Assembly: GCA_947494325.1 (NCBI GenBank)
Contig: CANLUS010000003.1
Span: 186,001 to 250,000 of the forward strand
DNA from: an uncultured Flavobacteriaceae bacterium
GTDB taxonomy: Bacteria; Bacteroidota; Bacteroidia; Flavobacteriales; Flavobacteriaceae
Reading direction: 5' to 3'
Length of the DNA: 64,000 nt
Shown here: piece after piece, positions 10,987 to 34,977 of the stretch
Layout of the letters: the number at the start of each line of letters is the position of its first letter
Numbering within the stretch: the first letter of the stretch is position 1
Notes under the pieces: model-generated
Database searches by the model: none
Seen by the model: only the letters and a program-made list of their open reading frames with translations
Told to the model about the DNA's origin: nothing
Position numbers and translations under genes: made by a program

Positions 10987-11610
10987 TTAGATAGTTACCA
11001 TATCTAACCTCATAATTTTTTCAGATCCGAAGTATTTTTTTATCCGCTTCATAAGCTCAATTTCTACTGACCACACTGAATTAAATTCGTTGTTGTATAA
11101 CTTAGGAATTGATGTTGTTCGATATACTTTTGTACTATATGGAAGATCCGTCATGATAAATCCTAGTAAAAAGAATGCAACAATTTTAGAAAGAAAACCG
11201 TTAAAGTAATTTCTTCCTATTTTTCCGTTTCCCAATTCTTTCGAACCGTATATGAGAGATAAGTCTTTATTTTCATGTATTGTTTGAACTAACCTTTCAA
11301 TATCACTAAAGTCTATGGATAGATCAGCTTCAATCGATCCGATATAGTCTACATCATGTCTGTTAAAAAAATAACGAGCACCAACTCTTACTGCGGCCGC
11401 CTTTCCTTTATTTTTCTTCATATCAATGATACTCACTTTTATTGTTCTTTGATTCTTAATATGATGCAGAACTTCTAAAGTATTGTCTTTACTGCCATTA
11501 TTCACGAAACACAAATGATAGTCATCATTTTTTTGTATAAAACTAATAAACGCTTCGACATTTAAGCTATTTGCTTCATTAAAGCAAGGTATAATAATTC
11601 CTGTTTTCAT
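10987..11610 (-). CDS. Family 2 glycosyltransferase, short paralogue
   Basis: This 207-residue protein has the GT2 start IIPCFNEANSL, the nucleotide-binding FVNNGSKDNTLEV and the metal-binding acidic motif as EADLSIDF (DAD in most relatives). It is clearly paralogous to the GT2 half of the receiver fusion at 20165-21310, but stops about 40 residues earlier and lacks the paralogue's EQPLKKWIHVDGSKLSM tail. A hydrophobic stretch (SKIVAFFLLGFIMTDL) may be a membrane anchor. It could be active, or an accessory/regulatory subunit. It is divergent from the GT-C operon, across a three-repeat phased operator. Probable role: glycosyl transfer onto a lipid carrier in exopolysaccharide synthesis. Confidence 0.85.
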   Translation of the reverse strand: MKTGIIIPCFNEANSLNVEAFISFIQKNDDYHLCFVNNGSKDNTLEVLHHIKNQRTIKVSIIDMKKNKGKAAAVRVGARYFFNRHDVDYIGSIEADLSIDFSDIERLVQTIHENKDLSLIYGSKELGNGKIGRNYFNGFLSKIVAFFLLGFIMTDLPYSTKVYRTTSIPKLYNNEFNSVWSVEIELMKRIKKYFGSEKIMRLDMVTI

Positions 11611-11632
11611 AACGTTTTGATTTATTTATGGT

Positions 11633-11721
11633 CAAATGTATCCGCAATTCGATGCTATTTCATGATATTTTCGATGAAAAGACGTTTTATGATGATGAAT
11701 GATATTTTCCTTTCGATAATT
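11633..11721 (-). promoter_or_regulatory. Phased-repeat operator and promoter (site A)
   Basis: Three 9-mers in plus-strand reading, TCGATGAAA (11671), ATGATGAAT (11692) and TCGATAATT (11713), are exactly 21 bp apart. The repeat nearest the short GT2 gene is 30 bp from TACATTTG (-7 box, minus strand 11640-11633). The start codon is 23 nt beyond. The geometry is that of a LytTR activator site. The plus-strand GT-C operon starts 62 bp away and may share it (weak -7 TATCTTTA at 11749). Confidence 0.65.
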
Positions 11722-11782
11722 ACTATCGACTGAAACCAAAGATTATTATATCTTTAAGAATTGTAAACATATTAAGTTATTG

Positions 11783-14700
11783 ATGAAACCGTCAACCAAT
11801 AAATATTTAATTTCTGCGCTGCTCATTGGTTTGGTCTTTCACGGTGCTTCGATGTTTTTTACACTTGAAAGTACTTATGATGCATTGATCCATTTATTTT
11901 TTGCTGATCATTATGCAACTTCTTGGTTCGAACCTTGGAATTTTAAATGGTATACTGGATTTACAGTAATGAGTTACCCGCCGTTGGTTCATCAAGTCAT
12001 TGGATTTTTGTCGCTATTAGGCGGTTTGAAATTTGGCCTTTTTACGGTTGCTATGATTTCGGTTATCTTATTTATTACGGGTGTTTATCGTTTTTCATTA
12101 CTTATAACTTCGAATAGAAAAGTAGCAGGGTATGCTGCCATACTTGCAGTGTTTTCTTCATCATTTGCAGAGACCTTACACTTGTTTGGTCAACTTCCGA
12201 GTATTGTTGGTGTTTCAATATTAATGCATGCGTTGCCCGAAATTTATTTATGGTTGAAACTTGGTAAACTGAAATACTTCTTCACTTCTTTATCATTTAT
12301 TGCGGTTACCGTTTGTTCACATCATGTAACTCCAATCTTTGGAATGATTTTCTTTATTTTCCCATTAATTGGAATGGTTCTTATGGATGATGCTGCAGAG
12401 CGTGTGAATTCAATTAAGGAAGTTACATTTAAACAGTTTTTTCAATCGTTTAAGAAGTTGTTTAAGCGAATAATAGGTTTCGGGATGTCTTCTTTGGTTA
12501 TCATTATTGTGTGTATTCTGCCTTATTGGATTAATACAAAGAACAATCCAATAACTCAGGTTCCAATACCACATGGCTCTAGGGATAATTTCATTGAAAT
12601 TGCTTCTTCAGGATTAGTATTCTTTTTAATTCCATGGGGTGTACTACTCATACTCTTACCATATATCTTTTATCGTTACTTCTCTAAACGATTTTTGTTT
12701 TATGGCATTTCGATGACCATTTTGTTTATTTTGGGGTCGGGAGGAACGACGCCTATTCCTAAACTATTCTTAGGAGAAAATGCTTTTAATATTTTAACAT
12801 TAGACCGTTTTACACTATGGGCATCTATTTTAGCGTTGCCACTTTTTGGAGAATTTGTTTTTAGAATGATCGAAGGAGATCTCAAAACGTTAATAGTAGC
12901 TAAACTCGGTAGCGTTTATTATCGATTATTCGGAGCTTTTTTAGGAGGATTACTACTGTTTATGACGATTTTCACCATCAATCTTGGCAATTTTAGACCT
13001 TCACAGCCCCAACCAATAAAAATGCTCCCGATTGTTAGTTTTTTGAATCAAGATCAACATGACCAGTGGCGTTATTTGACATTAGGTTTTGGTGATCAAA
13101 TGGCTTGGTTGTCTACACAAACAAAAGCAATGACAGTAGATGGCAATTACCATTCTGCGCGTCAGTTACCTGAATTAACAACCAAAGCTATTGAACGTTT
13201 AGAAAACTCTAAATTTAAAGGTATAGAAGGGATTGGATCGTTACAACAATTTTTAACGGTACCCGAAAAATATAATTTGAAATATATTTTTTCGAATGAT
13301 AAATTTTATGACCCAATATTATATTTTTCTGGTTGGCATCGCTTGCGTCAATTAGAGAATGGTATTATGGTTTGGGAACGCCTAAATATTCCTCCAGTAT
13401 CCTCTATTTTACCCAAGAATAATATCGCGACCTGGCAAAAAATTATGTGGGGAATTGTTCCGTTTCTAACGATCATTATCGCTGTTTTATTAAATATTCG
13501 GATTGTTTGGATACGAACTTTGAATAAGAAGTTACAGCCTTCACCAGTTTATTTGAATTTTAACAATACATATTCAAAATTTTCAAATACCCTATGTAAC
13601 ATTACGCACGTTTGGAGTTTTATTTTAATTATTATAACGTGCATTGGTCTTTATAGAAGTTATATTAAAAGTGATGCGCATCGAAGCCCAACAAATGCCT
13701 TGCTTTCGTATTATGATGCACTTGATTTTAAGGAGTTTGAAAAAGCCTTTAAACTGATAGACAAGGAAGCCAATCTATCTATTGCACAATACATGTTAGA
13801 AATATCTGTGACAGATGGACTCTTAAGCTCTTATGCAAAATTAGATGCAATAGATTGTGAAGTAGAGAAAATTAATGATACCATTGCGAATGCTAGGGTT
13901 ATGACAGAATGGATAACACCATTAGAGAAAATACAGAAAACCTTTTATAAATCGCTGATTAAAAGAAATAACAAATGGTTTATAAAACCTGAGAAGCTAG
14001 ATGCTGATTTGCCTCCAGATCAGTTGTATTCGCAAAATGCTAGCATTTATGTGAATCACGGAAGACGACGGATTACTACGGAGCAAACACATCATGAAGA
14101 TTTATTGAAACAGCCAGTCATTGAAATACTTTCAGCAAAATTGGTGAAAAAAGGAACGCAATATGCCATTATTGGTGAAATTCAAAACGTAGATAATGTG
14201 CCCGCCGATGTTATTTTAAAAGGTTCGCTGTATGCTGATGATAATACAGAATTAGCTAGTTATAACTCGAAATATCATGTGAAACATAAGTTAATGCCCA
14301 AAGAAGTGTCGAGCTTTAGAGTTAATTTTGAAGGAATTGCGTGGTCTGATATTACTGATGAAATACCGTCTACTTTTGATCCAGATGAATTTACCGACGT
14401 CGAATTTATAAAGGATCCGATGAAGTTTAATTTGCATATTGCAGGAAACGTCTCTGGAGAAGATTTATTTAAAGATCTTACCGTAAGCAATATTCAATTT
14501 GAAGAGAATACCATAACGGGTACCTTGTTCAATTCTGGCGTTCAAGAAGTCACAGTACCTCAATTACTTTTTAGTTATTATAACGCAGAAAAAGAATTAA
14601 TATGGGTAGATCATACCTTTATAGATGAAGGTATCCGTCAGCAACGAAAAAGAGGTTTTAAATATAGTTATCCAACAGATGAAATAATTGATGTTATTTC

Positions 14701-14872
14701 GACAGATATGTCGAATTGTTTGGTAAATGGTTTGCCAAATGAAGATATTTCCCAGAAAATAGTACCTAATAGAATCGTGAATCATTCACATGATCAGTTA
14801 CAAAACATAAACCATCGAACTTTTAAATATTTAAAGATAGAGCTGAACAGTTTTATAGGCAATCCAAACTAA
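11783..14872 (+). CDS. GT-C-like multispan membrane protein with extracytoplasmic domains
   Basis: About 1029 residues. Residues 1-400 contain roughly ten membrane spans, with an early acidic/His loop (STYDALIHLFFADHYATSW) reminiscent of GT-C lipid-linked-sugar transferases. A further membrane helix lies near 560 and another near 615. Then come an NTF2-like domain (~640-760, beginning NALLSYYDALDFKEFEKAF) and a beta-rich C-terminal region. It probably works at the outer face of the inner membrane on a lipid-linked sugar or polymer. ATG 11783 is preferred to the TTG just before it. Its stop overlaps the next start (TAATG), so translation is probably coupled with the Ig-like and hydrolase genes. 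The GT-C call is by topology, not by a verified catalytic motif. Confidence 0.72.
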   Translation: MKPSTNKYLISALLIGLVFHGASMFFTLESTYDALIHLFFADHYATSWFEPWNFKWYTGFTVMSYPPLVHQVIGFLSLLGGLKFGLFTVAMISVILFITGVYRFSLLITSNRKVAGYAAILAVFSSSFAETLHLFGQLPSIVGVSILMHALPEIYLWLKLGKLKYFFTSLSFIAVTVCSHHVTPIFGMIFFIFPLIGMVLMDDAAERVNSIKEVTFKQFFQSFKKLFKRIIGFGMSSLVIIIVCILPYWINTKNNPITQVPIPHGSRDNFIEIASSGLVFFLIPWGVLLILLPYIFYRYFSKRFLFYGISMTILFILGSGGTTPIPKLFLGENAFNILTLDRFTLWASILALPLFGEFVFRMIEGDLKTLIVAKLGSVYYRLFGAFLGGLLLFMTIFTINLGNFRPSQPQPIKMLPIVSFLNQDQHDQWRYLTLGFGDQMAWLSTQTKAMTVDGNYHSARQLPELTTKAIERLENSKFKGIEGIGSLQQFLTVPEKYNLKYIFSNDKFYDPILYFSGWHRLRQLENGIMVWERLNIPPVSSILPKNNIATWQKIMWGIVPFLTIIIAVLLNIRIVWIRTLNKKLQPSPVYLNFNNTYSKFSNTLCNITHVWSFILIIITCIGLYRSYIKSDAHRSPTNALLSYYDALDFKEFEKAFKLIDKEANLSIAQYMLEISVTDGLLSSYAKLDAIDCEVEKINDTIANARVMTEWITPLEKIQKTFYKSLIKRNNKWFIKPEKLDADLPPDQLYSQNASIYVNHGRRRITTEQTHHEDLLKQPVIEILSAKLVKKGTQYAIIGEIQNVDNVPADVILKGSLYADDNTELASYNSKYHVKHKLMPKEVSSFRVNFEGIAWSDITDEIPSTFDPDEFTDVEFIKDPMKFNLHIAGNVSGEDLFKDLTVSNIQFEENTITGTLFNSGVQEVTVPQLLFSYYNAEKELIWVDHTFIDEGIRQQRKRGFKYSYPTDEIIDVISTDMSNCLVNGLPNEDISQKIVPNRIVNHSHDQLQNINHRTFKYLKIELNSFIGNPN

Positions 14873-16086
14873 TGAATAAAACAAAAACATATATACTTCT
14901 GTTGTTGGTTATTCTAACCACTTCCTTTGTAATCATAACTGATAAAGAAGAATATGTTATAAAGTTGGAATCAACAAAGGAGGTTTTTAATGCTGGTGAA
15001 GAAATTGTGTTGACATTTACGTTCTCCGGAGAGAAAATGCCAGAATTATACTTTTCTAATAGTTATGGCTCCAGTATATCATCTCCAATAAAAAAAGAGA
15101 ATCGATTAGTATATGATCTTACGCAAGATCTAAATCATAGGACCGGATTTGTAAATTGGAAATTAACTCTTGATGATAAAAAGAGTATCGAAGGCTCTTT
15201 CGAAATTATTCCTGATAAAAAAGTCGATCAAATCGAATCTTATCTCGGGCCGAATAGTATTCAGGCAGGAGATAAAGATTTTGCAATGATGGTATTGTTA
15301 TTACATGATAAGTATGGGAATCCAGCAGCTGATAGCACCCAAGCTACGTTTAAAAGTCAATATCTAACGGACGAATCTTCCTTTATTGAGAGTTCTTTTA
15401 ACTTAATATCATACAGGAATTTCTACGCAACTAAGAAAGCAGGAAGAATATTAGTGAGTTCAGAAAGTGACAACACTTTTTCGAAAGAATATACCATTGA
15501 TGTTTTACCTAATATTCCGACTGATTTTACAATTTCAACAAGTAGAAACCATACCTATGCCGATGGCAATCAACTAACAAAATTTTCAACATCGATTATT
15601 AAAGATGTAAATGACAATATAGTTAGCGATGGGACTTTTGTAAATTTTTTCATTCGTAACAAGAAAGGGCATATTTTAAAAACGTCTGGAACAACGATTC
15701 GTGGGATTGCAACGGCCAGTATGATACATCCTGATAGTCCTGACGAATGGCAGGTTAAGGCCTATATTCCGGGCATGGCTGAAAGTGATGAAATTAAATT
15801 AGCGTACAAAAGAGCGATTCAAGATTTTCAGATTTCATTTGATATAGAAACAAGTACTTTAAATGTATTCGACCTCAAAAGTTTTATGAATCAATTTATT
15901 CCTGACGGACAGCGTGTCACTTTACATATAGTAAAAGATAAAAAACGCGTAGCAACCCTCTATGAAACCTCGAAAAACGGAGAAGCCTCATTTATGCTAA
16001 AAGAGAAAATTTTATCAAAAGGCAGTTATGAATTTGAAGTACATGTTGCAGGACTTTCAACCACTATATCTCATCAAAGTTTATGA
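14872..16086 (+). CDS. Secreted protein with bacterial Ig-like domains
   Basis: 404 residues. An N-terminal hydrophobic segment (TYILLLLVILTTSFVII) exports or anchors it. Several beta-sandwich segments follow: one around residues 25-120, a Big-1/invasin-like unit around 130-210 (LLLHDKYGNPAADSTQATF) and another around 215-320 (VNDNIVSDGTFVNFFIRNKK). No enzymatic motif is seen. It is the middle gene of a three-gene unit, overlapping its neighbours by 1 and 4 bp. It is probably a scaffold or polymer-binding partner of the GT-C protein and the GH5-like hydrolase; that role is inferred from context. Confidence 0.75.
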   Translation: MNKTKTYILLLLVILTTSFVIITDKEEYVIKLESTKEVFNAGEEIVLTFTFSGEKMPELYFSNSYGSSISSPIKKENRLVYDLTQDLNHRTGFVNWKLTLDDKKSIEGSFEIIPDKKVDQIESYLGPNSIQAGDKDFAMMVLLLHDKYGNPAADSTQATFKSQYLTDESSFIESSFNLISYRNFYATKKAGRILVSSESDNTFSKEYTIDVLPNIPTDFTISTSRNHTYADGNQLTKFSTSIIKDVNDNIVSDGTFVNFFIRNKKGHILKTSGTTIRGIATASMIHPDSPDEWQVKAYIPGMAESDEIKLAYKRAIQDFQISFDIETSTLNVFDLKSFMNQFIPDGQRVTLHIVKDKKRVATLYETSKNGEASFMLKEKILSKGSYEFEVHVAGLSTTISHQSL

Positions 16087-17606
16087 TTAATTTAAATAGA
16101 AATATTACTCGAAGTTTATTGCTCTTAGCATTCGTTGGAGTAAATATCTTGCTGATTTTTGGTATAGGGAAGGTGTTTAATTATTTAAACACTGGTGCTG
16201 ATAGAAGTAGCATGCTTCACTTAGAATTAAAAAAAGCCGAAAATTATACGCCTTCTTTAGAATGGTCTGAGAAAGTAAATGAAGGAAGAGTTATAGATCA
16301 ACAATCATTAAAAACGATAGAAAAAGACTACCTAAAAGCCTGGTATGTAAAACACGTTGCGTATAAGAATAATAACAAAACCGGCATAGAAGATTACTAT
16401 ACAGAAAGCGCACGAAAGAATATCTACAATTTTATTGAAACGAATAATCAGAAACAAGTATCGATAGAAGCTACTACCCTGGAGCATCATCCTACTTTAG
16501 AATTCTTTAGTGAAGATGGTCAGTTAGCTGTCATTACAGATGAAAATGTATCTGAGTACAAACGAATTTACAAGAAAGGTACCTTGGTAAATGAGGTAAA
16601 AGAAACAGCATCATATAAGGTTGTGCTCTTACTCGAAGATGGTTTTTGGCGTATTAGACATCTCTTAAAAACAGATGTGTCTAAGAAAGATGTAATTCAA
16701 AAATCAACCCAGGCATTACAAGACGATTTCAAGATTAAAGGAATCAATTATTACCCGCAAGCCACACCTTGGGACACTTTTGGAGAAGAATTTGATCTTG
16801 AAACTATTGGTGAAGACTTTGAAATTATCAAAAAAGCAGCATTAAATACGATAAGAATTTTTATACAATATGAAGATTTTGGAAAGGCAGAAGTAAAGGC
16901 TGAAAAAATAGAAAAATTAAAAAAAGTCCTTGACCTTGCAAATGACAAAGGTTTAAAGGTAATTGTTACCCTTTTTGATTTTTATGGGGATTATTCAGTT
17001 TTAGATTGGACTATGAATCAAAAGCATCTAGTAAAAATAGTTTCAACCTTTAAAGAGCACGAGGCAATTTTAGCCTGGGATGTGAAAAATGAACCTGATT
17101 TAGATTTTGATTCAAGAGGTAAATCAAACGTACTCGCTTGGTTAAATGAAATGATTGAGAATATTCGAAAAATCGATACAAAACATCTAGTAACTGTAGG
17201 TTGGGCGAAACATAAAAGTGTTTATTTATTGAAAGAAAAAGTTGATTTAATCTCATTTCATTATTATGAAGATATTGATGACTTTGAAGAAACGTATGTA
17301 AAAATTAGAACTGCTATTTCAGATAAGCCTCTCTTGTTAGGAGAGTTTGGGTATTCTTCATATGGAGGATTTTGGAAACCGTTTTCAGGTTCAAAAAACG
17401 GGCAACGCAATTTTTATAAAAAAATGCAAGATATGTTTAAAAAGAATGATGTTCATTTTATGTCTTGGACGTTATATGACTTCAAAAATGTTCCTAAAGA
17501 TGTCGTAGGAAGTTTGCCCTGGAGGCGAAGCCTCCAAAAAAGGTTCGGGTTTATTGATGTTAAAGGAAATCCCAAACCTGCTTTTGACTATATTTCTAGT
17601 AATTAA
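16083..17606 (+). CDS. Membrane-anchored GH5-like glycoside hydrolase
   Basis: 507 residues. An N-terminal membrane anchor (SLLLLAFVGVNILLIFGIGK) is followed by an NTF2-like domain (~75-205) and a TIM-barrel hydrolase from ~residue 218 (INYYPQATPWDTF). The putative acid/base is Glu337 in WDVKNEPDLD and the nucleophile Glu421 in LLLGEFGYSS, the two-glutamate retaining arrangement of clan GH-A. Polysaccharide export systems often carry such a trimming hydrolase (BcsZ, PelA and PgaB play this part), and its position in the locus suggests the same here. ATGA overlap with the upstream gene; the stop overlaps the converging GT4 gene by 11 bp. Substrate unknown. Confidence 0.82.
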   Translation: MINLNRNITRSLLLLAFVGVNILLIFGIGKVFNYLNTGADRSSMLHLELKKAENYTPSLEWSEKVNEGRVIDQQSLKTIEKDYLKAWYVKHVAYKNNNKTGIEDYYTESARKNIYNFIETNNQKQVSIEATTLEHHPTLEFFSEDGQLAVITDENVSEYKRIYKKGTLVNEVKETASYKVVLLLEDGFWRIRHLLKTDVSKKDVIQKSTQALQDDFKIKGINYYPQATPWDTFGEEFDLETIGEDFEIIKKAALNTIRIFIQYEDFGKAEVKAEKIEKLKKVLDLANDKGLKVIVTLFDFYGDYSVLDWTMNQKHLVKIVSTFKEHEAILAWDVKNEPDLDFDSRGKSNVLAWLNEMIENIRKIDTKHLVTVGWAKHKSVYLLKEKVDLISFHYYEDIDDFEETYVKIRTAISDKPLLLGEFGYSSYGGFWKPFSGSKNGQRNFYKKMQDMFKKNDVHFMSWTLYDFKNVPKDVVGSLPWRRSLQKRFGFIDVKGNPKPAFDYISSN

Positions 17607-18786
17607 AAAGAGTTTTTCTCGTGATATTATGAAAACTTTCCATATACAAATCGGTAATATGAGACATCGGTAAAGAAGTGGCAGCTTTATAATTAATCCT
17701 ACCCAGGTTTCTTCTATACTTGTCATTAGTTAAGATGTTTTCTATGGCCTCAGTTAAACTATCGACTGAGTTAGGTTCGAAAAACTCACCTTCATACCCT
17801 TCATCCTTAACTAAAAGTGCTAAATCTCCTAGATTAGGCATTACAACTGCTTTTCCATAGCTTCCTGCCTGATGCAAAACACCTGAACTCCCCGTTGTTG
17901 AGGTATATGGAAATACAACAACAGCACTCTCTTGAAAAATGCTGGCTACATCGCTTTCTTCAACATATCCTGTAAAAGTAATTTGAGGTACATTTTTATA
18001 TTTTTCTTCCACCTCTTTTAAATATCCCGGAACGTTTGGGTTATCTGTTCCTGCGATAACAACTTCTATGTTTAATTGAGACCTTTTACGTATCTTTTCA
18101 ATAGCCTCTATTAAAATTTCAACTTTTTTATAGGTACCGAATTTTCCAAAGGTCATTACTTTTAAAGGGCCAGGAGCTAGTTCATATGAAGGCTCTTCTG
18201 GAATTTCGAAAGTTCCATGTGGAATATTGATAACATTGGTTGCATTGTATTTTTCTTTTAAAATGTCTACATATTTTGGCATTGTTAACGCCACAACATC
18301 AGCTTTCAATATAAATTTAGTCAATAGTGTACCAATAGAATTATAGATCTTTTGTAAAAGCTTGTTTTTAGTGAACCCTGCCGTATTTAAGTCTACTTGC
18401 TCCAAAATATTATGAAGCAATACAATATTTGGTATCTTTTTTATACTACAAACCCATGGTAACAAAAGACCTAAGGCAGCTGCTATTTTCTTATCACCAA
18501 ATTTCATGAACTGAAGATTAAATAAAACAGCATCTGGTTTTGTTGAATTAATAGCTTTGGTGATGCTAAATAGGTTACTATAGCTATTAAAAGACCAGCA
18601 CTCTTGAACTGTTATTTTACAACCGTCTTCAACAAACGATAGATCTTTTTCTCCTTCAGTGGTGTCAGTGAGTAGAACAATTTCAGTTATTTCTGCTTTC
18701 TGTCTAAAGTATTTTACTAAATGGTAAGCGTATTCGTTTAATGTTACCTTACTCGGTGGATATGCTGTTACTAGGGCTAATTTCAT
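17596..18786 (-). CDS. Family 4-type glycosyltransferase
   Basis: 396 residues with the two-Rossmann GT-B fold. The N-terminal half has an acceptor-side region (MKLALVTAYPPSKVTLNEYA); the C-terminal half has the donor-binding region KVMTFGKFGTYKKVEILIEA, VIAGTDNPNVPGYL and the E-x7-E-like stretch around VVFPYTSTTGSSGVLHQAGS. It is cytoplasmic or peripheral and should add a nucleotide-activated sugar during exopolysaccharide building. It is downstream of the flippase with a 103-bp gap holding its own phased-repeat promoter (site C), so it can be transcribed separately. Confidence 0.88.
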   Translation of the reverse strand: MKLALVTAYPPSKVTLNEYAYHLVKYFRQKAEITEIVLLTDTTEGEKDLSFVEDGCKITVQECWSFNSYSNLFSITKAINSTKPDAVLFNLQFMKFGDKKIAAALGLLLPWVCSIKKIPNIVLLHNILEQVDLNTAGFTKNKLLQKIYNSIGTLLTKFILKADVVALTMPKYVDILKEKYNATNVINIPHGTFEIPEEPSYELAPGPLKVMTFGKFGTYKKVEILIEAIEKIRKRSQLNIEVVIAGTDNPNVPGYLKEVEEKYKNVPQITFTGYVEESDVASIFQESAVVVFPYTSTTGSSGVLHQAGSYGKAVVMPNLGDLALLVKDEGYEGEFFEPNSVDSLTEAIENILTNDKYRRNLGRINYKAATSLPMSHITDLYMESFHNITRKTLFNY

Positions 18787-18810
18787 AATTATTTAGTTTT
18801 GTTTGCTTCA

Positions 18811-18878
18811 CAAATTTCATTGTTTTAAGATCATTCTATAGTGAAAGTAAGGTAGAATGCTAATTACTGTCGGTGAAG
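18811..18878 (-). promoter_or_regulatory. Phased-repeat operator and promoter (site C)
   Basis: TCGGTGAAG at 18870 and AAGGTAGAA at 18849 are 21 bp apart. The 30-bp spacing to GAAATTTG (-7-like, minus strand 18818-18811) matches sites A, B, D and F. The stretch 18862-18877 is 15/16 identical to 21849-21864 (site B), and GGTAGAAT is shared with site E. It drives the GT4 gene. Confidence 0.55.
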
Positions 18879-18889
18879 GGTAGTTTTCT

Positions 18890-20149: not shown

Positions 20150-20164
20150 TTTAAGTAGTGTTTA

Positions 20165-21481: not shown

Positions 21482-21760
21482 TTAAGCTACCAGTAAGGAA
21501 GTTCCTTGATTTCGAAGTTGATTGAATTTTAATCCGGTAATACAAAGTCTTTGATTCATACAAGAAATCTGCTCATATAATTCTTCTAATCCTTTCATTC
21601 CAGCAAGATCAATTTTCTTGATTCCTGCGATGTTTAGTATGATATTCGGGCCTAAATCAATGGTATAGTTAAAATGACTTTTTAAATGCGATAAGGTTTT
21701 GTTATTTAAAACTCCTGTTAAATAAAATACGTCTTTGATTCTTTTAATTTCTAAATCCAT
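21482..21760 (-). CDS. STAS-domain protein lacking the phospho-site
   Basis: 92 residues, essentially one STAS domain of the SpoIIAA/anti-anti-sigma fold. The loop that normally reads D-S-S-G reads IKKIDLAGMKGL, so the Ser/Thr that is phosphorylated in SpoIIAA-type proteins is Ala here. It may be a constitutive binding partner rather than a kinase-switched one. It is first in the STAS/receiver-GT2/flippase set and is driven by site B. In other bacteria STAS proteins control anti-sigma factors or polysaccharide output; no matching anti-sigma kinase is seen nearby. Confidence 0.8.
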   Translation of the reverse strand: MDLEIKRIKDVFYLTGVLNNKTLSHLKSHFNYTIDLGPNIILNIAGIKKIDLAGMKGLEELYEQISCMNQRLCITGLKFNQLRNQGTSLLVA

Positions 21761-21865: not shown

Positions 21866-21909
21866 GATTCCATTTATATACTTAACTTGCAGTAATTAAA
21901 TTTGTCGCT

Positions 21910-28035: not shown

Positions 28036-28049
28036 AACTTTTTTTTTGA

Positions 28050-28138
28050 CAAAGATATTGGCATTTGAAGTGTAGCTTAGATCAAATTAGATAAGTAAGC
28101 TATCTCTTTAGATGAATGGTAATTTAATATCGATGAGT
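28050..28138 (-). promoter_or_regulatory. Phased-repeat operator and promoter (site D)
   Basis: TAGATAAGT (28088), TAGATGAAT (28109) and TCGATGAGT (28130) are spaced 21 bp. The proximal repeat is exactly 30 bp from a perfect -7 box, TATCTTTG, on the minus strand (28057-28050). It drives the sorted secreted-protein gene. Confidence 0.72.
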
Positions 28139-28182
28139 TGAAAAGTTAGCAAGGAAGCAACCATAATGTGTAAAAAATGAAA

Positions 28183-28231
28183 AGGAGTGTTATGAGTTAA
28201 GATTTTACTTAACTTTTATCATAACACTCCT
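28183..28231 (-). terminator. Long bulged stem-loop, minus strand
   Basis: A 13-bp outer stem (28183-28195 with 28219-28231) and a 6-bp inner stem, followed on the minus strand by a T-rich run. It is probably a second stop downstream of the 28371 terminator. The gap 28036-28663 holds two operator sites, two terminators and a predicted small RNA; no convincing protein gene. Confidence 0.55.
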
Positions 28232-28365
28232 ATCGTCCCTATGTTATTCGAATATGACAGTTTTAGAAAAAGAGGGAATAGTTATTCGTGATATGAACAC
28301 ATCCTATTTCCTCTAAAAAAAGCCACCTCATTACTATGCATTATTTGCTTTTAATCTGGTGTCGT

Positions 28366-28505
28366 TTAAAAAAGAGGTGTGGGTTAAACTCATATTTAAC
28401 ACATGTTCACACCTCTTTATACTCCCCAGTATATTCTTCGATTCGGTATGCTTTCGAATACTTAAAGTTTCTATTTGCATTCGCATCTTCAGTTATTACA
28501 TTTTG
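28366..28505 (-). ncRNA. Predicted small RNA from phased-repeat promoter
   Basis: The promoter at site F (perfect -7 box at 28518-28511) and the terminator at 28371-28418 bracket a transcript of about 135-140 nt in a stretch without a known gene. A 50-codon open frame (ATG at 28486, stop near 28334) runs through the terminator stem and past it, so the product is more likely an RNA than a protein. No family was recognised. Confidence 0.4.
28371..28418 (-). terminator. Intrinsic terminator of predicted small RNA
   Basis: An 11-bp outer stem (28371-28381 with 28408-28418), an inner 6-bp stem, then six T on the minus strand. Also a likely end for read-through from the signalling operon. Confidence 0.7.
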
Positions 28506-28510
28506 ATATT

Positions 28511-28578
28511 CAAAGATACTTTAGAAGAAAGGTCGAAATAAGAGATTTTCGTTGAGTATCCATTTTATCTAGACGAAT
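28511..28578 (-). promoter_or_regulatory. Phased-repeat operator and promoter (site F)
   Basis: TCGTTGAGT (28549) and TAGACGAAT (28570) are 21 bp apart, and the proximal repeat is exactly 30 bp from a perfect TATCTTTG -7 box on the minus strand (28518-28511). It lies just after the end of the signalling operon and points into the gap. Confidence 0.65.
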
Positions 28579-28663
28579 GGAAGTATCGCATAGATAATTG
28601 AATTTAAGTATGAAAAATAAAGTGGTGTTTTGCTAATAAAAAATGAAAAATATGGAGTATTTC

Positions 28664-29374
28664 TTAGAGTAAGTTTAATCGCTTCATTAATTCTGGACGA
28701 TTAGAACGACTCACAGGAATAACGTCTTTTTTGATAAGAACACTATTATCTTCAATATCGATAATTTGCTTTACATTAATAATATACGATCGATGCACTT
28801 TCAGAAACAAATTGTCAGGTAATTTTTCTTCAATTTTTTTAAGTGTAGAATGCACCGTATAATTTTTTTCTTCGGTTTTTACCAAGATATAATCACCTTT
28901 TGCTTCTATTAGATAAATACTTGCAATATTTATTTTAATTAATCGTCTATCAATGTTTACATATAGCTCCTTGTCTGTAGAAGATTGGTTGGTGTCATTC
29001 GTATCTGATATTTGCTCTGTGTATCCTGAAGATTTCGCTTTTTGAACAGCCTTCTCAAAACGAGGTAGTAAAACCGGTTTCACCAGGTAATCTACAATAC
29101 AATCATATTCGAACGCTTCAATTGCAAAATTCGCGTCCGAGGTTGTTAAAACAATTTTAGGAGGATTTTTTAACGTTTGAATAAAATCAAAACCTGTAAA
29201 ATCAGGCATATGAATATCTAAAAATATGAGATCTACTTCATTTTGATTTAAAAACTTTATGGCCTCTATGGCATTCGGAAATTCATCAAGAACAATAAGA
29301 TCATCCAGTTTACTGCATAACTGATTAATTATGGCTCTTGCGGTAGATTCATCATCAATAATAATACACTTCAT
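28664..29374 (-). CDS. LytTR-family response regulator
   Basis: 236 residues. A full receiver (IIIDDES, phospho-acceptor Asp53 in LIFLDIHMPD, Thr in VLTTSD, Lys in YLVKPVLL) is followed by a linker and a LytTR DNA-binding domain at ~140-236 (IASIYLIEAKGDYILVKTEE, FLKVHRSYIINVKQI). It is the last gene of the seven-gene signalling operon, 9 bp after the HPt gene, and so the likely output of the relay. LytTR proteins bind 9-bp direct repeats about 21 bp apart, the pattern at sites A-F. One of those sites precedes its own operon, suggesting autoregulation. Confidence 0.93.
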   Translation of the reverse strand: MKCIIIDDESTARAIINQLCSKLDDLIVLDEFPNAIEAIKFLNQNEVDLIFLDIHMPDFTGFDFIQTLKNPPKIVLTTSDANFAIEAFEYDCIVDYLVKPVLLPRFEKAVQKAKSSGYTEQISDTNDTNQSSTDKELYVNIDRRLIKINIASIYLIEAKGDYILVKTEEKNYTVHSTLKKIEEKLPDNLFLKVHRSYIINVKQIIDIEDNSVLIKKDVIPVSRSNRPELMKRLNLL

Positions 29375-29383
29375 AAAGGCTCG

Positions 29384-29701
29384 TTATAGGTTTTCGAGAT
29401 AATTTGTTATGGTCTGCAAAATTGATTCAAATTCTGATGAAAGAGCTGTGCTGCCTTCTCTTAAATTATCTTCATACGCTACTGCAATCTCATAACTTTT
29501 ATCAAGCCCTAAAATACTAATTTTATGTTTAAGTTTATGAACGTTATCCGCGGTTAGTTCAAAATTACCAGAATTTAAATTTGTCTGATATGATTTTTTC
29601 TCTTCTGGAAACTCTTCTTTTAGGATGTCAAGAATTTTAGTTTTAAAGGATTCATCACCTCCAGAAAGTTCTTCTATATAAGAGATATTAGGTTTTTCCA
29701 T
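29384..29701 (-). CDS. HPt phosphotransfer protein
   Basis: 105 residues, a stand-alone histidine phosphotransfer domain with His55 in NVHKLKHKISILGL, the helical-bundle motif of HPt proteins. It carries phosphoryl groups between receivers. It sits between the second histidine kinase (3 bp) and the LytTR gene (9 bp), which suggests a multistep relay, perhaps also reaching the CheY-like receiver at the operon start or the receiver-GT2 fusion. Confidence 0.85.
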   Translation of the reverse strand: MEKPNISYIEELSGGDESFKTKILDILKEEFPEEKKSYQTNLNSGNFELTADNVHKLKHKISILGLDKSYEIAVAYEDNLREGSTALSSEFESILQTITNYLENL

Positions 29702-29704
29702 ATT

Positions 29705-30853
29705 CTATTTTTTTAAGGTAAAATGAAATGTTGTTCCTTTACCAGGTTCAGATGTCAACCAAATATCCCCTTCATAAAGATGAACTATTTTTTTTACAAT
29801 TGATAGACCCATTCCTGTTGATTTTAAATTGTTCTCAAGAGATTCAAAGGTCTTAAATATTTTGTTAAAATACACGTTTTCAATCCCTTTGCCGTTATCT
29901 TGAACATAAAACTCCCAAAACTCATCTTTTTCTAAAGCACCAATTTCGATATATCCATTGGCTTTGTCATTAAAATTAATTGCATTGTCAATTAAATTTT
30001 GAAATAGTTGTTGCAATCTATATCGATCACCTTTAACAACCGGTAAGAACTTTCTGATTATTGCTATATGCTCAGGGATTTTTAAGACACTCAGTGTATC
30101 GTCAATCAACACATTAATGTCAACATCGTACGTATCTACTTGATTTTTATCTATTGTTGAATATTCAAGAATACCACTAATCAAAGTATCCATTTTATCC
30201 ACATTACTTCTAATTAGTCTAAGTTGTTGTTTTCCATAATCATCAAATTTATCTTTATAATCTTCATGGAGCCACATGGTTAAACCATCAATACTCCGTA
30301 AAGGTGATTTTAAATCATGAGATACCATATGTGCATAATCACTTAGTTCTTGGTTTTGAATTTCAAGATTACTCAGTAAATTATGTTGTTCAGCAAAAAC
30401 TTTGCATGCTTTTAAGTTAATAGAAAATGTATCAATCACAGATTGTAATTGGAGTAAATCCTTTGTGCGTAAATTGTTTTTTTTTGAAAATAAGAATAAG
30501 AACCCTTGATCCTTTAAAGTAAAGATTGCCAGATTTCCATCTTTTATTTCAATAGGAGCGAGGTCCTCATAACGATCATCGTATTTAATAAGTTTGGTGC
30601 TTTTAATAGTACTTAATAACCAATCAATCTCTTTCGATGATTTTATGTTGATTTCCTTACCTCTAGGTATTGAATATTTAGAAATGAGCCTCTTTTCTTT
30701 AGTTTCTATAATCCAGGCTGCATTGAGGTTTTTACGCTTTAAAACTAATTTCAAAAAAGAATCACAACTCTTTTTATAATCAAGAGATTTCCCTATTGCC
30801 ATGGAAAATTCATAGAGTTGGAGAATATCTGATATATGCGTTTGTGTATTCAT
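29705..30853 (-). CDS. Soluble sensor histidine kinase (partner of FIST sensor)
   Basis: 382 residues with no membrane span. The N-terminal ~160 residues look like a GAF-type sensory domain. The dimerisation helix is YAHMVSHDLKSPLRSIDGL (phospho-acceptor His), followed by an ATPase domain (NLIDNAINFND, DNGKGIENVYF, GMGLSIVKKIV). The kinase core closely resembles that of the PAS kinase at 31953, so the two are paralogues. It directly follows the FIST gene with no gap, as NosP-associated kinases do in other bacteria. It probably feeds the HPt and LytTR proteins downstream. Confidence 0.9.
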   Translation of the reverse strand: MNTQTHISDILQLYEFSMAIGKSLDYKKSCDSFLKLVLKRKNLNAAWIIETKEKRLISKYSIPRGKEINIKSSKEIDWLLSTIKSTKLIKYDDRYEDLAPIEIKDGNLAIFTLKDQGFLFLFSKKNNLRTKDLLQLQSVIDTFSINLKACKVFAEQHNLLSNLEIQNQELSDYAHMVSHDLKSPLRSIDGLTMWLHEDYKDKFDDYGKQQLRLIRSNVDKMDTLISGILEYSTIDKNQVDTYDVDINVLIDDTLSVLKIPEHIAIIRKFLPVVKGDRYRLQQLFQNLIDNAINFNDKANGYIEIGALEKDEFWEFYVQDNGKGIENVYFNKIFKTFESLENNLKSTGMGLSIVKKIVHLYEGDIWLTSEPGKGTTFHFTLKK

Positions 30854-31951
30854 CTATTCAAATAAACCGACAACAACGGTTTTATTATAAAAATCAAGAA
30901 ACCCCTCTCCATAAGATGAAATTTCACCTAGAGTTAATGCACCACTTATAGATATGTTAGGGTGTTTTTCTTTTATTGTTTGAGTAATTGCATTTAGTTC
31001 TTGGTCAAAATTGTCTTCTAAGAACAGAACACGAGAGATACAATCAATAATGATCGCTTTTGTCGGTGAAATAGCTTGTTCTAGACTTTCTTCAGCAGCC
31101 AATTTAGACGCTTGGATTAAAGAATTTTCGTTTCCATTTAAGATGTCTACAAGTGTATTATCTTCTAGTTCTCCAACACAAATAATCTCACCTAAATCGT
31201 TAACCATTAACGGGTCTCTTACGATACATTCTGCATTATCTTTAACAATTCCAAATGGATAACCTTTAGCAATATCGAAAAAATTGTTATTGGTGAACTG
31301 TTTGTTAGCATGTAATTCAACAACTTCTTTATACACCTTGAATGGATTTTCCCAATTAATTTCTTTAATAATATTGCCTTCTGCTTTTGTTACAATAAAC
31401 GGTCCGGCAACTTTATTCCACCCATGTCGTACACCAATTTGAGATTGCATTCTCATTACACAAAATACCGCAGCGTCTTGATAAAAACCTTCATTAGAGA
31501 AAACACATGGCTTTTGTTCTAATGTAAGACTTCCAGCTCCACCACCGAAATAGTTGGTTCGCATTCCGTAAGTTTCATAGAGCTCACTTAGGTAATATGA
31601 AATATTTGAAGTTAATCCGTCGACATAGGTAAAAAGACTATATGGCTCATTTTTGTCAAAATTCACCTGAGGAATGCGATACTCCTTTTTACTAACATTA
31701 TGCACTAAAAATAAGTTTTCGACATTGTGAAGTCGATTAATCACAATCCCTTTCTCCAAAATGGAATTCTCATGAACAACCTTTGGAAATAGGCCTCCTA
31801 TAAACTTTAAATTTACAGAGTTTAGGGCTATAATTAATTCATTAATATCAACTTCAGTGTGCTCTCCAATTGATATTAAAACAGCTTCGTCTTTTGCATG
31901 TTGTGATATCAGATTAACGATTTCGATAATTCTTACAGTTGTAATTAGCAT
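30854..31951 (-). CDS. FIST-domain sensor (NosP-like)
   Basis: 365 residues covering both FIST halves: the N-terminal part (to ~residue 200, with TYGMRTNYFGGGAGSLTLEQ) and the C-terminal part (VVELHANKQFTNNNFFDIAK, FGIVKDNAECIVRDPLMVND, GALTLGEISSYG). FIST proteins sense small ligands; the NosP subgroup binds haem and nitric oxide and controls a neighbouring kinase. Haem binding cannot be proven from the sequence, but an adjoining kinase and an H-NOX protein in the same operon support a NosP role. Start 1 bp after the PAS kinase stop. Confidence 0.85.
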   Translation of the reverse strand: MLITTVRIIEIVNLISQHAKDEAVLISIGEHTEVDINELIIALNSVNLKFIGGLFPKVVHENSILEKGIVINRLHNVENLFLVHNVSKKEYRIPQVNFDKNEPYSLFTYVDGLTSNISYYLSELYETYGMRTNYFGGGAGSLTLEQKPCVFSNEGFYQDAAVFCVMRMQSQIGVRHGWNKVAGPFIVTKAEGNIIKEINWENPFKVYKEVVELHANKQFTNNNFFDIAKGYPFGIVKDNAECIVRDPLMVNDLGEIICVGELEDNTLVDILNGNENSLIQASKLAAEESLEQAISPTKAIIIDCISRVLFLEDNFDQELNAITQTIKEKHPNISISGALTLGEISSYGEGFLDFYNKTVVVGLFE

Positions 31952-31952
31952 A

Positions 31953-33911
31953 TCACTTTTTTAGTGTAAAATAAAACTTTGAACCTTTTTCTAGTTCACT
32001 TTCCAACCATATACTTCCTTCATGTAAATTGACAATTTTCTTAACAATAGACAGGCCAATACCTGTGGAATCTTTATTTTTATTTAAAGCATGAAAGATT
32101 TTAAATATTTTATTGTGAAATTTTTGATCAATTCCGATTCCATTATCACTTATTGAAAACTGAAAATATCCTTTTTTATCTTCAACATCAATTTGAATCT
32201 GACCTTTATCTTTATTATTAAATTTAATGGCGTTACTCATTAAGTTTTGAAACACCTGTTGTAGTTTTGTTTTATCACCAACAACTATTGGCAATTTTTT
32301 TACTATAGTTACATTGATGTGGTCTGGTATATATAGTATATTAATTAAATCTGTAACTATTTGATTTGTATCTACTTCGGTAATTTTTGAATTATCTGCC
32401 CCGACGCTCGAATAGTTTAGAATATCGGAAATTAATAACTCCATTTTTTCAAGTGTCATTTCAATAAGATCTAAATTTTGAATACTTGTTTCGTCTAGCT
32501 TATCTTTATTATCTTCTTTTAACCAGCTTACTAAGGCATCTATGCTTCTTAATGGCGATTTTAAATCATGCGATACAATATGTGCGTACTCTTGAAGTTC
32601 ATCATTGCTCTTTTCTAGTTCCAAAAGAAGACTTTCTTTCTGTAATTCTAAGATTTTATTATTGGTAATATCTAAATGGATACCTATTGAACCCACTACA
32701 TTGCCATTTATATCATAATTCGGAGCACCACTAATCAACCAATGTTTTTTGGCCCCTGACTTCGTTTTCACCTCAAGTTCATAAGAATTTGATTGTCCTC
32801 TTTCACGTTTCTTATTTTCATTTTTTATTTTGTCTTCTTGAGCAGTTTCCAAAAAAATGTCACCCGCCTTTTTGCCGATTAATTCCGTTTCGGTATACCC
32901 AGACATTTCAGTGAAACTCTGATTCACCAGTAAAATTTCATCTTCGGTATTAACTTCCATTAACCCTAAATTCATATTGGCAATAATACTGCTGTATTTT
33001 TGCTTCTGAGATTCTAAACTCTTTCTGTAGGTTCTGTTTAGGGTTACATCTCTATAGGTCCATAGATGACCACGATACACATTATTCTTTAAAATAGGTA
33101 TAAAATCACGTTCTAGAACAGTGCCGTTTTTCATGGTCAACTCATCAGCTAAGACCGTCTCCTTTTTTTCTAGAATTTCGTCAATTCGTTTCACAAATTC
33201 ATTTTCATTTTCAAAAAGGCTTTTGCTTTTTTCTGCAGCGTCTGAGCAATCTTCTCCTTTGAGGGATTCGGCATCTACAGGAATACTAAATAACTCACAG
33301 AATTTTTTATTTGTAAGGACTATTTTTCGATGTTCATCTTCTAAGAGAACACCACTATCAAGATTTAAGATGAGAGAAGATAAACGACTTTCAGATTTAA
33401 TGAGTCGTTCTTCAGACGCCTTTTGAGCCGATATATCTCTAACAATTCCTTGAGCGGCAATCGGTTCATTTTTTTTGTTAAAAACGACACTTGCATTAAT
33501 ATGAACCCATTTTAAATTACCAGATTTGGTATGTACCCTTGCCTCATAATTTTTGAAAAATCCGTTTTTTCGCAACGCTGCAAAAGAAGTCATGGCGTAT
33601 TTATAATCTTCTTTATAGATTAAGTCGACCACATTTAACGATTCTTTTTCAATATCAAAACCAAATAGCGTAACGGCTGCATCATTAAAACGAATCACAT
33701 TACCGCTTAAATCCATAACAACATAGGCATCTACGATATTTTCAAAAATACCTTGTAGTTGCGAGGATTTTTCATCTAATAAATGTTCTAATTTTTGAGA
33801 GGTTTCATATAAAACCCTAGATTTATCTTCTAGAATTTTTTCTGCTGCTTTGCGAGCTGCTTTTTCTCTTTTTAGAGCTCTTTGTAGTATGTCAATTTGC
33901 TCTTGACTCAT
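31953..33911 (-). CDS. Multi-PAS sensor histidine kinase
   Basis: 652 residues, cytoplasmic. An N-terminal coiled coil (1-50) is followed by three PAS modules at ~55-165 (VDAYVVMDLSGNVIRFNDAA), ~175-295 and ~305-425 (NMNLGLMEVNTEDEILLVNQ), the phospho-acceptor helix EYAHIVSHDLKSPLRSIDAL (~440) and an ATPase domain (NLMSNAIKFNN, DNGIGIDQKF, GIGLSIVKKIV). Its start overlaps the H-NOX stop by 1 bp, so the H-NOX protein is the expected ligand-sensing partner, as with other H-NOX-associated kinases. The PAS domains may add redox or other inputs. Confidence 0.92.
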   Translation of the reverse strand: MSQEQIDILQRALKREKAARKAAEKILEDKSRVLYETSQKLEHLLDEKSSQLQGIFENIVDAYVVMDLSGNVIRFNDAAVTLFGFDIEKESLNVVDLIYKEDYKYAMTSFAALRKNGFFKNYEARVHTKSGNLKWVHINASVVFNKKNEPIAAQGIVRDISAQKASEERLIKSESRLSSLILNLDSGVLLEDEHRKIVLTNKKFCELFSIPVDAESLKGEDCSDAAEKSKSLFENENEFVKRIDEILEKKETVLADELTMKNGTVLERDFIPILKNNVYRGHLWTYRDVTLNRTYRKSLESQKQKYSSIIANMNLGLMEVNTEDEILLVNQSFTEMSGYTETELIGKKAGDIFLETAQEDKIKNENKKRERGQSNSYELEVKTKSGAKKHWLISGAPNYDINGNVVGSIGIHLDITNNKILELQKESLLLELEKSNDELQEYAHIVSHDLKSPLRSIDALVSWLKEDNKDKLDETSIQNLDLIEMTLEKMELLISDILNYSSVGADNSKITEVDTNQIVTDLINILYIPDHINVTIVKKLPIVVGDKTKLQQVFQNLMSNAIKFNNKDKGQIQIDVEDKKGYFQFSISDNGIGIDQKFHNKIFKIFHALNKNKDSTGIGLSIVKKIVNLHEGSIWLESELEKGSKFYFTLKK

Positions 33912-34450
33912 TAATTCTTGTTGACGATGAATTTTACTTCGGTACCATCATCTTTGATTTTTTCAAGTTCAATTGTCGCCGTGCTATTAAAGTGTTCGAA
34001 TGTTTTATTCATCAACCCTAGACCAAAATGATGCATAGCTCTACTCGATTTATAGATCATCACAAGTGAGTTTTCTGTTTTCTCTAAAACGTCAAAAGTT
34101 GGTAATTCAGCATCAGGATAAATCTTACGCACTTCAACATGAATATGATCTTCAATAGAAGCTAACATTTCAATTGGATCAGAATAGGTTGCTAGTAAAC
34201 CAGGATAACTTTCCTCAAGTACACTAAAAAAATGCTCTGCATAAACTAGCAGTAAATCATCAATCGAGATCCCTGTATCAGCACTTAAATGTTGCAATAA
34301 TTGAAGCATTTCAGAAAACTTATAGGTACCAATAGAAGTATAAACACCTCCGGATTCTAAGGTTGATTTTTGAATAATGGCGTCTACCATTTCTAATCCG
34401 AATTTATCCTCAACTAGGTCTAAAAATTCTGTAAATACAATTCCTTTCAT
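33911..34450 (-). CDS. H-NOX haem sensor protein
   Basis: 179 residues, one complete H-NOX (HNOB) domain. Proximal haem ligand His104 lies in DHIHVEVRKIYPDAELP, and the haem-carboxylate motif Y-x-S-x-R is Tyr133, Ser135, Arg137 (MIYKSSRAMHHF). H-NOX proteins bind NO (some also O2) and regulate a neighbouring histidine kinase, here the PAS kinase that overlaps its stop. All key residues are intact. It sits 1 bp after the CheY-like receiver. In other bacteria such systems control biofilm formation, which fits the nearby polysaccharide locus. Confidence 0.94.
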   Translation of the reverse strand: MKGIVFTEFLDLVEDKFGLEMVDAIIQKSTLESGGVYTSIGTYKFSEMLQLLQHLSADTGISIDDLLLVYAEHFFSVLEESYPGLLATYSDPIEMLASIEDHIHVEVRKIYPDAELPTFDVLEKTENSLVMIYKSSRAMHHFGLGLMNKTFEHFNSTATIELEKIKDDGTEVKFIVNKN

Positions 34451-34864
34451 TTATATTTTTTTTAATTCATTGATACTCCAATAGGCTAACACTTTTTCAA
34501 TTTTATTGACGTAATCTTCATATTTTAATGGTTTTAAAACGTATCCAGCGATGCCTAACTTATAACATTCCAGTAAGTCTTTCTCGTTACTAGATGTGGT
34601 TAATATAATCGTAGGAATATACCTCAAAACAGCATCATTTTTCAAAATGCCTAAGAATTCAATTCCATTAATTTTTGGCATATTTAAATCTAATAAAATA
34701 ATATCGGGTAATACCGCTTTTTCCTTTAACAAATCTAGAGCTTCCTCACCATTATTTGCTTCAATTATATCATGACCAACTCCTAATTTATCGATTACAC
34801 GATTCAATTTCATGACCTCTATTTTGTCATCTTCGATTAAAAGTACTTTTAAATTGTTTTTCAT
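34451..34864 (-). CDS. CheY-like single-domain response regulator
   Basis: 137 residues, receiver only: acidic pair LLIEDDKIE, phospho-acceptor Asp59 in IILLDLNMPKING, Thr in IILTTSS, Lys in VLKPLKYEDY. No output domain. It is the first gene of the signalling operon, so it probably serves as a phosphate sink, intermediate or protein-interacting output. The promoter region is site E. Confidence 0.9.
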   Translation of the reverse strand: MKNNLKVLLIEDDKIEVMKLNRVIDKLGVGHDIIEANNGEEALDLLKEKAVLPDIILLDLNMPKINGIEFLGILKNDAVLRYIPTIILTTSSNEKDLLECYKLGIAGYVLKPLKYEDYVNKIEKVLAYWSINELKKI

Positions 34865-34890
34865 ACGGACGTTTCATCTAATTAAGCTAC

Positions 34891-34977
34891 CAAAATATTT
34901 AAAATATGGCAACGACTAGATTTCATTCGTTTAAAGGTAATCTTTAATCGGTAGAATAACAATAAGTGTCGACGAAT
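34891..34977 (-). promoter_or_regulatory. Phased-repeat operator of signalling operon (site E)
   Basis: TCGTTTAAA (34927), TCGGTAGAA (34948) and TCGACGAAT (34969) are at 21-bp steps, 63-113 bp before the operon's first gene. The -7 box is weaker than at the other sites: ATATTTTG at 34898-34891, 28 bp from the proximal repeat. GGTAGAAT is shared with site C. Confidence 0.5.

Follow-up and report, generated by a model that had tools for sequence, protein, structure and literature searches.

A predicted nitric oxide-responsive phosphorelay with LytTR output beside a polysaccharide-type locus in an uncultured Flavobacteriaceae bacterium

Described nitric oxide circuits and the window operon

The bacterial circuits in which the nitric oxide (NO) sensors H-NOX and NosP control biofilms have so far been described mostly as acting via cyclic di-GMP (c-di-GMP) or quorum sensing (PMC8738867). 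The kinase in such systems is often inhibited by NO-bound H-NOX or NosP (PMC6769237, PMC8738867), whereas the Legionella NosP stimulates its kinase (PMC8738867). In a stretch of 64,000 nt from an uncultured marine Flavobacteriaceae bacterium (contig CANLUS010000003.1; hereafter the window, with positions numbered from its first letter) there is a seven-gene minus-strand run (34864-28664) whose open reading frames (ORFs) and Pfam matches identify, in order, a receiver (REC), H-NOX, a PAS-kinase, a FIST protein, a second kinase, an HPt protein and a REC-LytTR regulator. A sequence-only reading of this DNA had proposed that the operon, a neighbouring exopolysaccharide locus and a secreted protein form one signal-to-matrix circuit, and comparative genomics supports this through synteny, co-occurrence and promoter geometry. 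We regard the one-circuit reading as well supported, not proven, and put the probability of a single self-amplifying NO signal-to-matrix circuit at about 0.8.

The closest precedent is that of Vibrio fischeri, in which hnoX-hahK signals through SypF (HPt) or LuxU to SypG and the syp locus (PMC12369376, PMC8738867). An H-NOX-controlled kinase, an HPt step, a response regulator and transcription of a polysaccharide locus would be shared, so that the window operon is predicted to be functionally like the H-NOX/HahK route, built with other parts. Unlike V. fischeri, the window has a LytTR output, its own free receiver and HPt within the operon, FIST as a second candidate sensor, adjoining targets, a site before its own operon, and putative targets that include a predicted RNA and a secreted type IX secretion system (T9SS) protein. 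The Shewanella oneidensis hno system has in common with it H-NOX, a kinase, more than one receiver protein and a regulator, HnoC, that feeds back on its own regulon; however, its HnoB arm acts on c-di-GMP whereas the window genome has no GGDEF match, and phosphorylation of HnoC relieves repression whereas the window geometry suggests activation (PMC8738867). In NosP/NosK systems, too, a FIST protein adjoins a kinase that has no recognised sensor domain, but the window FIST shares its operon with H-NOX and the predicted output is not a c-di-GMP enzyme (PMC12570481, PMC6769237). New here would be a LytTR regulator as output, the pairing of two candidate NO sensors within a single operon, the linkage to targets, the probable lack of c-di-GMP and a candidate small RNA. 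In the Spo0 phosphorelay the kinase, free receiver, phosphotransferase and DNA-binding receiver are four separate proteins; this is also the predicted design of the window relay, which differs in having an HPt domain instead of Spo0B, a LytTR output and gas sensors. H-NOX in Bacteroidota was noted earlier in Microscilla bins together with NO synthase, and the part of that report concerned with it gives no circuit (PMC5563961). Our searches of the open-access PMC literature returned no description of the circuit proposed here, and likewise no paper on a LytTR operator or regulon in Flavobacteriaceae.

The operon is tightly packed, neighbouring genes overlapping by 1 nt at the closest and lying 9 nt apart at the widest, and every domain named for it by the sequence-only reading was recovered by Pfam, all on the minus strand. 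The stand-alone receiver REC1 (34451-34864; Response_reg, 5.7e-23) is the predicted first phospho-acceptor, and its Asp-59 is kept in 91 of 92 aligned related ORFs. It is followed by the predicted haem sensor H-NOX (33911-34450; HNOB, 9.7e-40) and its predicted partner, a PAS histidine kinase (31953-33911; PAS/HisKA/HATPase) with His-448 kept in 32/32 aligned sequences, and then by the NosP-like FIST protein (30854-31951; FIST 6.2e-26, FIST_C 7.4e-21) and the second histidine kinase (29705-30853; HisKA, HATPase_c), for which the evidence of a phospho-acceptor domain is the Pfam HisKA match alone. The HPt protein (29384-29701; Hpt, 2e-6) and the REC-LytTR regulator (28664-29374; REC and LytTR), the predicted activator, complete the run; HPt His-55 is kept in 92/92 and LytTR Asp-53 in 100/100 aligned sequences. 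Neither kinase has an attached receiver, and a sensor-type gene stands directly before each (H-NOX for the PAS kinase, FIST for the other). By alignment, the residues for a four-step phosphorelay are thus all present, namely the first-kinase His, REC1 Asp, HPt His and LytTR Asp. Upstream of REC1 the window has no ORF of at least 80 aa; loci L027, L036, L053 and others have a small ORF there (~90-130 aa) with its own repeat site.

The haem motif of H-NOX proteins comprises the proximal His, a Pro and YxSxR. In the window protein and its relatives His-104, Pro-117, Tyr-133 and Ser-135 are invariant (86/86 aligned), and position 137 is Arg in 76 and Lys in 10. The protein is identical at 154 of 179 residues to PDB 6bdd, which we take to be the Kordia algicida H-NOX, and both have Ala at position 71. 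Because of this identity and the invariant His, Pro, Tyr and Ser, a haem-free H-NOX, which the sequence-only reading had named as a finding that would speak against it, is judged unlikely. To our knowledge nothing beyond structural and simulation work exists for the K. algicida protein. PDB entries 6bdd and 6bde carry the label aldolase although their sequence is that of H-NOX. The part of PMC7356049 that deals with the K. algicida H-NOX reports structural and simulation work and describes no circuit.

The FIST and FIST_C domains adjoin a kinase without a recognised sensor domain, as is asked of a NosP, and FIST His-176 is kept in 9/9 relatives. FIST homologues in Proteobacteria are haem NO sensors (PMC12570481), and by analogy the window protein is a possible second NO/haem sensor.

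In the mechanism we propose, NO acting on H-NOX, and perhaps on FIST, would alter kinase activity, which the closest precedents suggest would be lowered. Phosphate would pass from kinase to REC1, HPt and LytTR as in Spo0-type relays, and phosphorylated LytTR would bind the repeats described below and activate its target genes together with its own operon, making the circuit self-amplifying. If the kinase is lowered as in those precedents, the matrix genes would be turned down by NO. A receiver carried on a GT2 glycosyltransferase of the adjoining locus could be a second, post-translational output of the relay.

Repeat sites, promoter geometry and the predicted regulator

For comparison we used 80 related loci from named genomes that were fetched with the LytTR protein. 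They are the top 80 of 562 confirmed matches (74-81% identity), so that close LytTR orthologues are over-represented in the sample. LytTR proteins are known to use operators of direct repeats about two helix turns apart. A 44-nt position weight matrix (PWM) trained on the REC1 upstream regions of 79 loci from other genomes, with the window's own genome excluded, consists of two copies of CCATTCGTCGACACTTAA as a direct repeat with a 21-bp period (49.8 bits), and the training sites begin 105-143 nt ahead of the REC1 start codon. The combination of REC and LytTR domains with ~21-bp direct repeats at the putative targets is what is expected of a LytTR regulator with a direct-repeat operator.

Scanning the whole window on both strands with half-site pairs at 20-22 bp spacing (score of at least 6) gives nine matches, or six sites after merging of overlaps, against 0.53 expected from 15 simulated windows. 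All are on the minus strand within 11664-34999, before five named transcription units, so that the phased LytTR-type repeats of the sequence-only reading are recovered by a model trained without this genome. The strongest (28102-28140, score 23.1) lies before the secreted-protein gene, with TATCTTTG at 28050-28057 matching the TAnnTTTG promoter element without mismatch, and is followed in score by the pair before the STAS/REC-GT2/flippase genes (21829-21867, 19.6; element at offset 62, one mismatch), the pair before the sensor operon (34941-34979, 14.3; element 34890-34897, offset 82, one mismatch) and the pair with 20-bp spacing before GT4 (18843-18880, 14.0; offset 62, one mismatch). The repeats 3' of lytTR (28542-28601; 11.2 and 7.4) precede TATCTTTG at 28511-28518 (offset 62, no mismatch) and form the predicted promoter of a short RNA. 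The repeats assigned earlier to the secreted-protein gene do stand before it, but are two separate sites (28102-28140 and 28542-28601), the farther of which seems to drive the short RNA; the site claimed for GT2 is likewise present but weak (11664-11702, score 8.0; element 11633-11640 TACATTTG, offset 62, no mismatch).

TAnnTTTG is the -7 element of Bacteroidota promoters. It is no part of the site model, and was looked for at 269 sites with 21-bp spacing from the 80 loci. Allowing one mismatch, 213 of the 269 have it at a distance of 61-63 or 82-84 nt from where the site starts, compared with 17, 14, 10 and 8 for four control sets of six other offsets, and 94 of the 97 exact matches within offsets 40-150 fall at these two distances. 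The preferred offsets (~62 and ~82 nt) differ by about one repeat, and all six window sites have the element at 62 or 82, three without mismatch. From this fixed distance between repeat and promoter element we infer that the repeats serve activation, to which the geometry points as it would for an activator adjoining RNA polymerase. LytTR is predicted to bind the repeats; that they are instead the sites of a repressor, or promoter elements that have no connection with LytTR, we consider very unlikely, given the direct-repeat form that fits LytTR, the fixed position upstream of the -7 element and the co-occurrence of the sites with orthologues of the 28664 LytTR gene.

The genome has 25 LytTR matches. 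In a family sample of 249 genomes from 235 genera (site cut-off E <=0.005), the LytTR orthologue is found in 98, sites in 100 and both in 93, that is, sites in 93/98 genomes with the orthologue vs 7/151 without (Fisher 6e-53, relatedness ignored). Since the site model was made from orthologue-bearing genomes, it is the lack of sites in genomes without the orthologue that is informative. The counts may be too low because 25 of the several hundred to ~2,300 candidates per genome were scored, under stricter filters. Among 60 genomes around the window, its own included, the LytTR orthologue (E <=1e-60) is in 18, H-NOX in 18 and both in 16, and 16 of the 17 genomes with sites have the orthologue. 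These co-occurrences, together with sites standing before the same genes in different loci, support the earlier proposal that the LytTR regulator at 28664 controls these promoters.

A second LytTR set lies within 6919-10965 of the window, with a TPR-kinase and a receiver, beside the gene of a multi-transmembrane (multi-TM) protein. That this set (LytTR 6919-7659, TPR-kinase 8172, receiver 10288) regulates the sites is suggested by its being nearer to the GT2 end of the polysaccharide locus. We rejected its LytTR as the site regulator and hold the idea to be highly improbable, since no site of score at least 6 is nearby, among 20 stretches compared the set was seen next to the multi-TM gene in just two genomes of the same genus (G003 and G004), and the sites span many genera together with the 28664 orthologue.

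In the window's own genome (3.64 Mb) a sequence-only model from 68 sites, with 150 of 1599 candidates scored, gives six matches at E <=0.01, four of them in the window (before STAS, REC1, the secreted protein and GT4); on this count we rejected the idea that such sites are common throughout the genome. A predicted regulon is now available for one of the genome's LytTR proteins, and the defined operator and promoter geometry make regulator, targets and signal directly testable.

Conservation of the operon and weighing of the proposed circuit

Window proteins were mapped onto the 80 loci by tblastn at E 1e-6, with query coverage of 30% or more required. HPt is found in 80, REC1 in 79 and H-NOX in 76 (one of the four others, L064, is cut short), the secreted-protein homologue in 66 (some distant), TPR in 60, the flippase in 43 and GT4 in 34. 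Sites of score at least 10 number 289 in the 80 loci, against 7 in a single simulated set of the same size, and stand before REC1 in 79 loci (the training set), the secreted protein in 55, STAS in 33, GT4 in 25, the flippase in six and REC-GT2 in two. Three of the 289 are inside genes, and 74 are before other ORFs or have no nearby ORF; read by eye, these 74 include sites before small ORFs upstream of REC1, sites before unlabelled STAS or flippase equivalents, positions after the flippase gene near the locus end, positions just 3' of lytTR, and another kind of polysaccharide locus.

The side-by-side conservation of sensor operon and polysaccharide locus, offered earlier as a check, is seen in 12 of the 17 other genomes around the window with a LytTR orthologue, within the stretches examined, and in 62/80 loci the flank holds one or more genes of the polysaccharide locus. 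The alternative that the two are separate units, neighbours by chance and sharing sites by accident, could draw on the other 18 loci, which have no gene of this locus in the flank; flanks are under 7 kb in five of these and a full 10 kb in 13. However, some of the 18 have a different, site-bearing polysaccharide locus in its place, and with 62 loci syntenic, the repeat-to-promoter geometry fixed and sites before the same genes across loci, we find such a coincidence extremely hard to credit.

H-NOX is in 93 of the 249 genomes, 87 of which have the LytTR orthologue, and in 81 of these 87 it lies within 8 kb of the LytTR gene. A different account keeps the same LytTR regulon and makes NO merely auxiliary, the main signal entering via the first kinase's PAS domains or coming from a different ligand. 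Beyond the presence of those PAS domains, 11 of the 98 LytTR-orthologue genomes have no H-NOX match, five of them being at least 90% complete, and L031, L075 and L076, in which H-NOX was not found, retain REC1, kinase, HPt, LytTR and sites, including the REC1 site. Set against this are the H-NOX genes of the other 87 genomes and of 76 of the 80 loci, and the position of the H-NOX gene directly before the PAS kinase in the window. This account, which overlaps with the single NO circuit that we prefer, seems to us somewhat unlikely, though to be taken seriously.

Several observations weigh against the single circuit, among them the genomes without H-NOX and the 13 loci with full flanks just mentioned. 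FIST, found in 45/80 loci at a loose cut-off and in nine of those at 45% identity or more, is on this evidence an optional part of the operon; of the culturable relatives that have the block, such as Dokdonia pacifica (L018) and Winogradskyella flava (L030), the latter has a close FIST. The two lists of the family sample do not coincide entirely, with five of the 98 orthologue-bearing genomes lacking sites and seven of the 151 others having them. Two of the six own-genome matches are on contig 2 (L120:9110-9148 and L120:6501-6539). They too have an in-register -7 element, and the genes that follow them are one for an ECF sigma factor (194 aa) and a 97-aa ORF that gave no Pfam match. Within the genus the LytTR orthologue is patchy, being present in just 5 of 16 other genomes. 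One same-genus relative, G003 (L174), has no REC1 match and no strong site before the operon (best score 10.4), and the locus sites of another, G004, score 20.6, 11.7 and 9.2; with model R1 the sole G003 match and two of the three G004 matches fall outside the locus. In the window itself the second repeat is weak in several sites, and the scan gave no site oriented towards the TPR gene (21910) or the plus-strand genes at 11780-17606.

The GGDEF-enzyme output expected of c-di-GMP-linked H-NOX systems was not found here. A GGDEF search gave no match in the window's genome (the same search was positive in 8/14 control genomes), matches in five of the 249 family genomes, three above the cut-off, and one match, below the cut-off, among the 98 with the LytTR orthologue. 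With GGDEF enzymes so rare, c-di-GMP is probably not part of the route, which would be a conserved alternative to circuits acting via c-di-GMP or quorum sensing in a large bacterial group; the sampled genomes of this group almost all lack GGDEF, and the block and its sites occur in many of its genera.

Polysaccharide-type genes and a candidate short RNA

The minus-strand genes of the adjoining locus begin with a STAS-domain protein (21482-21760; Pfam STAS, 1.6e-5), a receiver fused to a GT2 glycosyltransferase by Pfam (REC-GT2, 20165-21310), whose Asp-51 is found in 9 of 11 aligned sequences with an alignment gap in the other two, and a MOP-type flippase (18890-20149), and continue with GT4 (17596-18786; Glycos_transf_1, 3.1e-22) and GT2 (10987-11610; 4.7e-18). 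The secreted DUF6923 protein (25429-28035, minus strand; DUF6923 5.2e-24) has a T9SS C-terminal domain (Por_Secre_tail, 2.3e-7). Pfam thus bears out the GT2, GT4, STAS/REC-GT2 and secreted-protein assignments of the earlier reading, but the flippase, with nothing more than a sub-threshold Polysacc_synt match, is borne out only by its predicted fold. The AlphaFold model (pLDDT 84.8) is WzxE-like, with a Foldseek match to WzxE 9g9p (TM 0.74/0.76, E 3.5e-7); MATE transporters rank equally high and MurJ also matches. The modelled protein has a MOP fold, and from the gene neighbourhood we infer a Wzx function.

Syntenic plus-strand genes accompany this set. The TPR protein (21910-23970) is divergent from STAS, and 11780-17606 encodes a 1030-aa multi-TM protein with ~10 hydrophobic segments and a poor predicted structure (pLDDT 56.2), a Big_1-like protein whose match is below the Pfam cut-off, and a GH5 protein.

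Where the operon adjoins a different polysaccharide locus, that locus has sites as well. In L043 the sensor operon is followed, by Pfam, by such a locus (11115-19931), with genes for a UDP-sugar dehydrogenase, an epimerase, a free receiver, a fusion of an initiating sugar transferase with a receiver-like domain, an outer-membrane protein, a protein containing a CbiA-type region and a Polysacc_synt protein. Sites precede the genes of the dehydrogenase (11013) and the outer-membrane protein (15273), and another is close to the end of the locus (20049). Loci L020, L066 and L072 (10784-19457) resemble it by gene order and dehydrogenase start. By eye, the receiver-like part of the L043 fusion appears to be without the Asp and the adjoining free receiver has it. 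Because receivers on sugar transferases occur in two unlike loci, we suggest that the receiver-bearing sugar transferases may constitute a post-translational branch of the relay.

Between lytTR and the secreted-protein gene, behind the LytTR-type promoter at 28542-28601, lies a predicted short RNA (28366-28505, minus strand) whose 3' end is a hairpin followed by a T-run and whose fold has an energy of -29 kcal/mol (z -2.68); a simple terminator scan of 28030-28700 found none, and the hairpin was revealed by folding. In the 80 loci there are 20 sites with an in-register -7 element followed by a strong hairpin and T-run. Three were excluded (L021 at 14548 and L043 at 20049, which are elsewhere, and L072, with the hairpin in coding sequence), and the remaining ones are 0-600 nt 3' of lytTR in 15/80 loci, with the T-run at +56 to +127. 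The REC1, GT4 and STAS sites give 0/95 by the same test, and random positions, mostly coding, 10/400. The window arrangement (28580-28366) resembles the site-plus-hairpin-terminator layout of the 15 loci. Alternatively, the lytTR operon may terminate here, with the promoter lying within its terminator, or the structure may be an attenuator; either is a live alternative.

In its broadest form the proposal would be of an NO switch that is widespread among Flavobacteriaceae, works without c-di-GMP and has a relay with three outputs. The first would be transcription of polysaccharide loci that are interchangeable, the second a small RNA that responds to NO and is made from the LytTR promoter closely following the regulator gene, and the third a glycosyltransferase that the relay phosphorylates directly on its fused receiver. 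Taken as a whole, we think this unlikely.

No known RNA family was found for the short RNA, the search returning one chance match far below the gathering score. In an alignment of 13 short RNAs chosen by eye (from 11 of the 15 loci plus L013 and L044) the terminator hairpin is the sole common structure, and we therefore claim no RNA family. Within the genus, L174 lacks the region, and L175 carries a paired change from U-A to C-G in the RNA stem.

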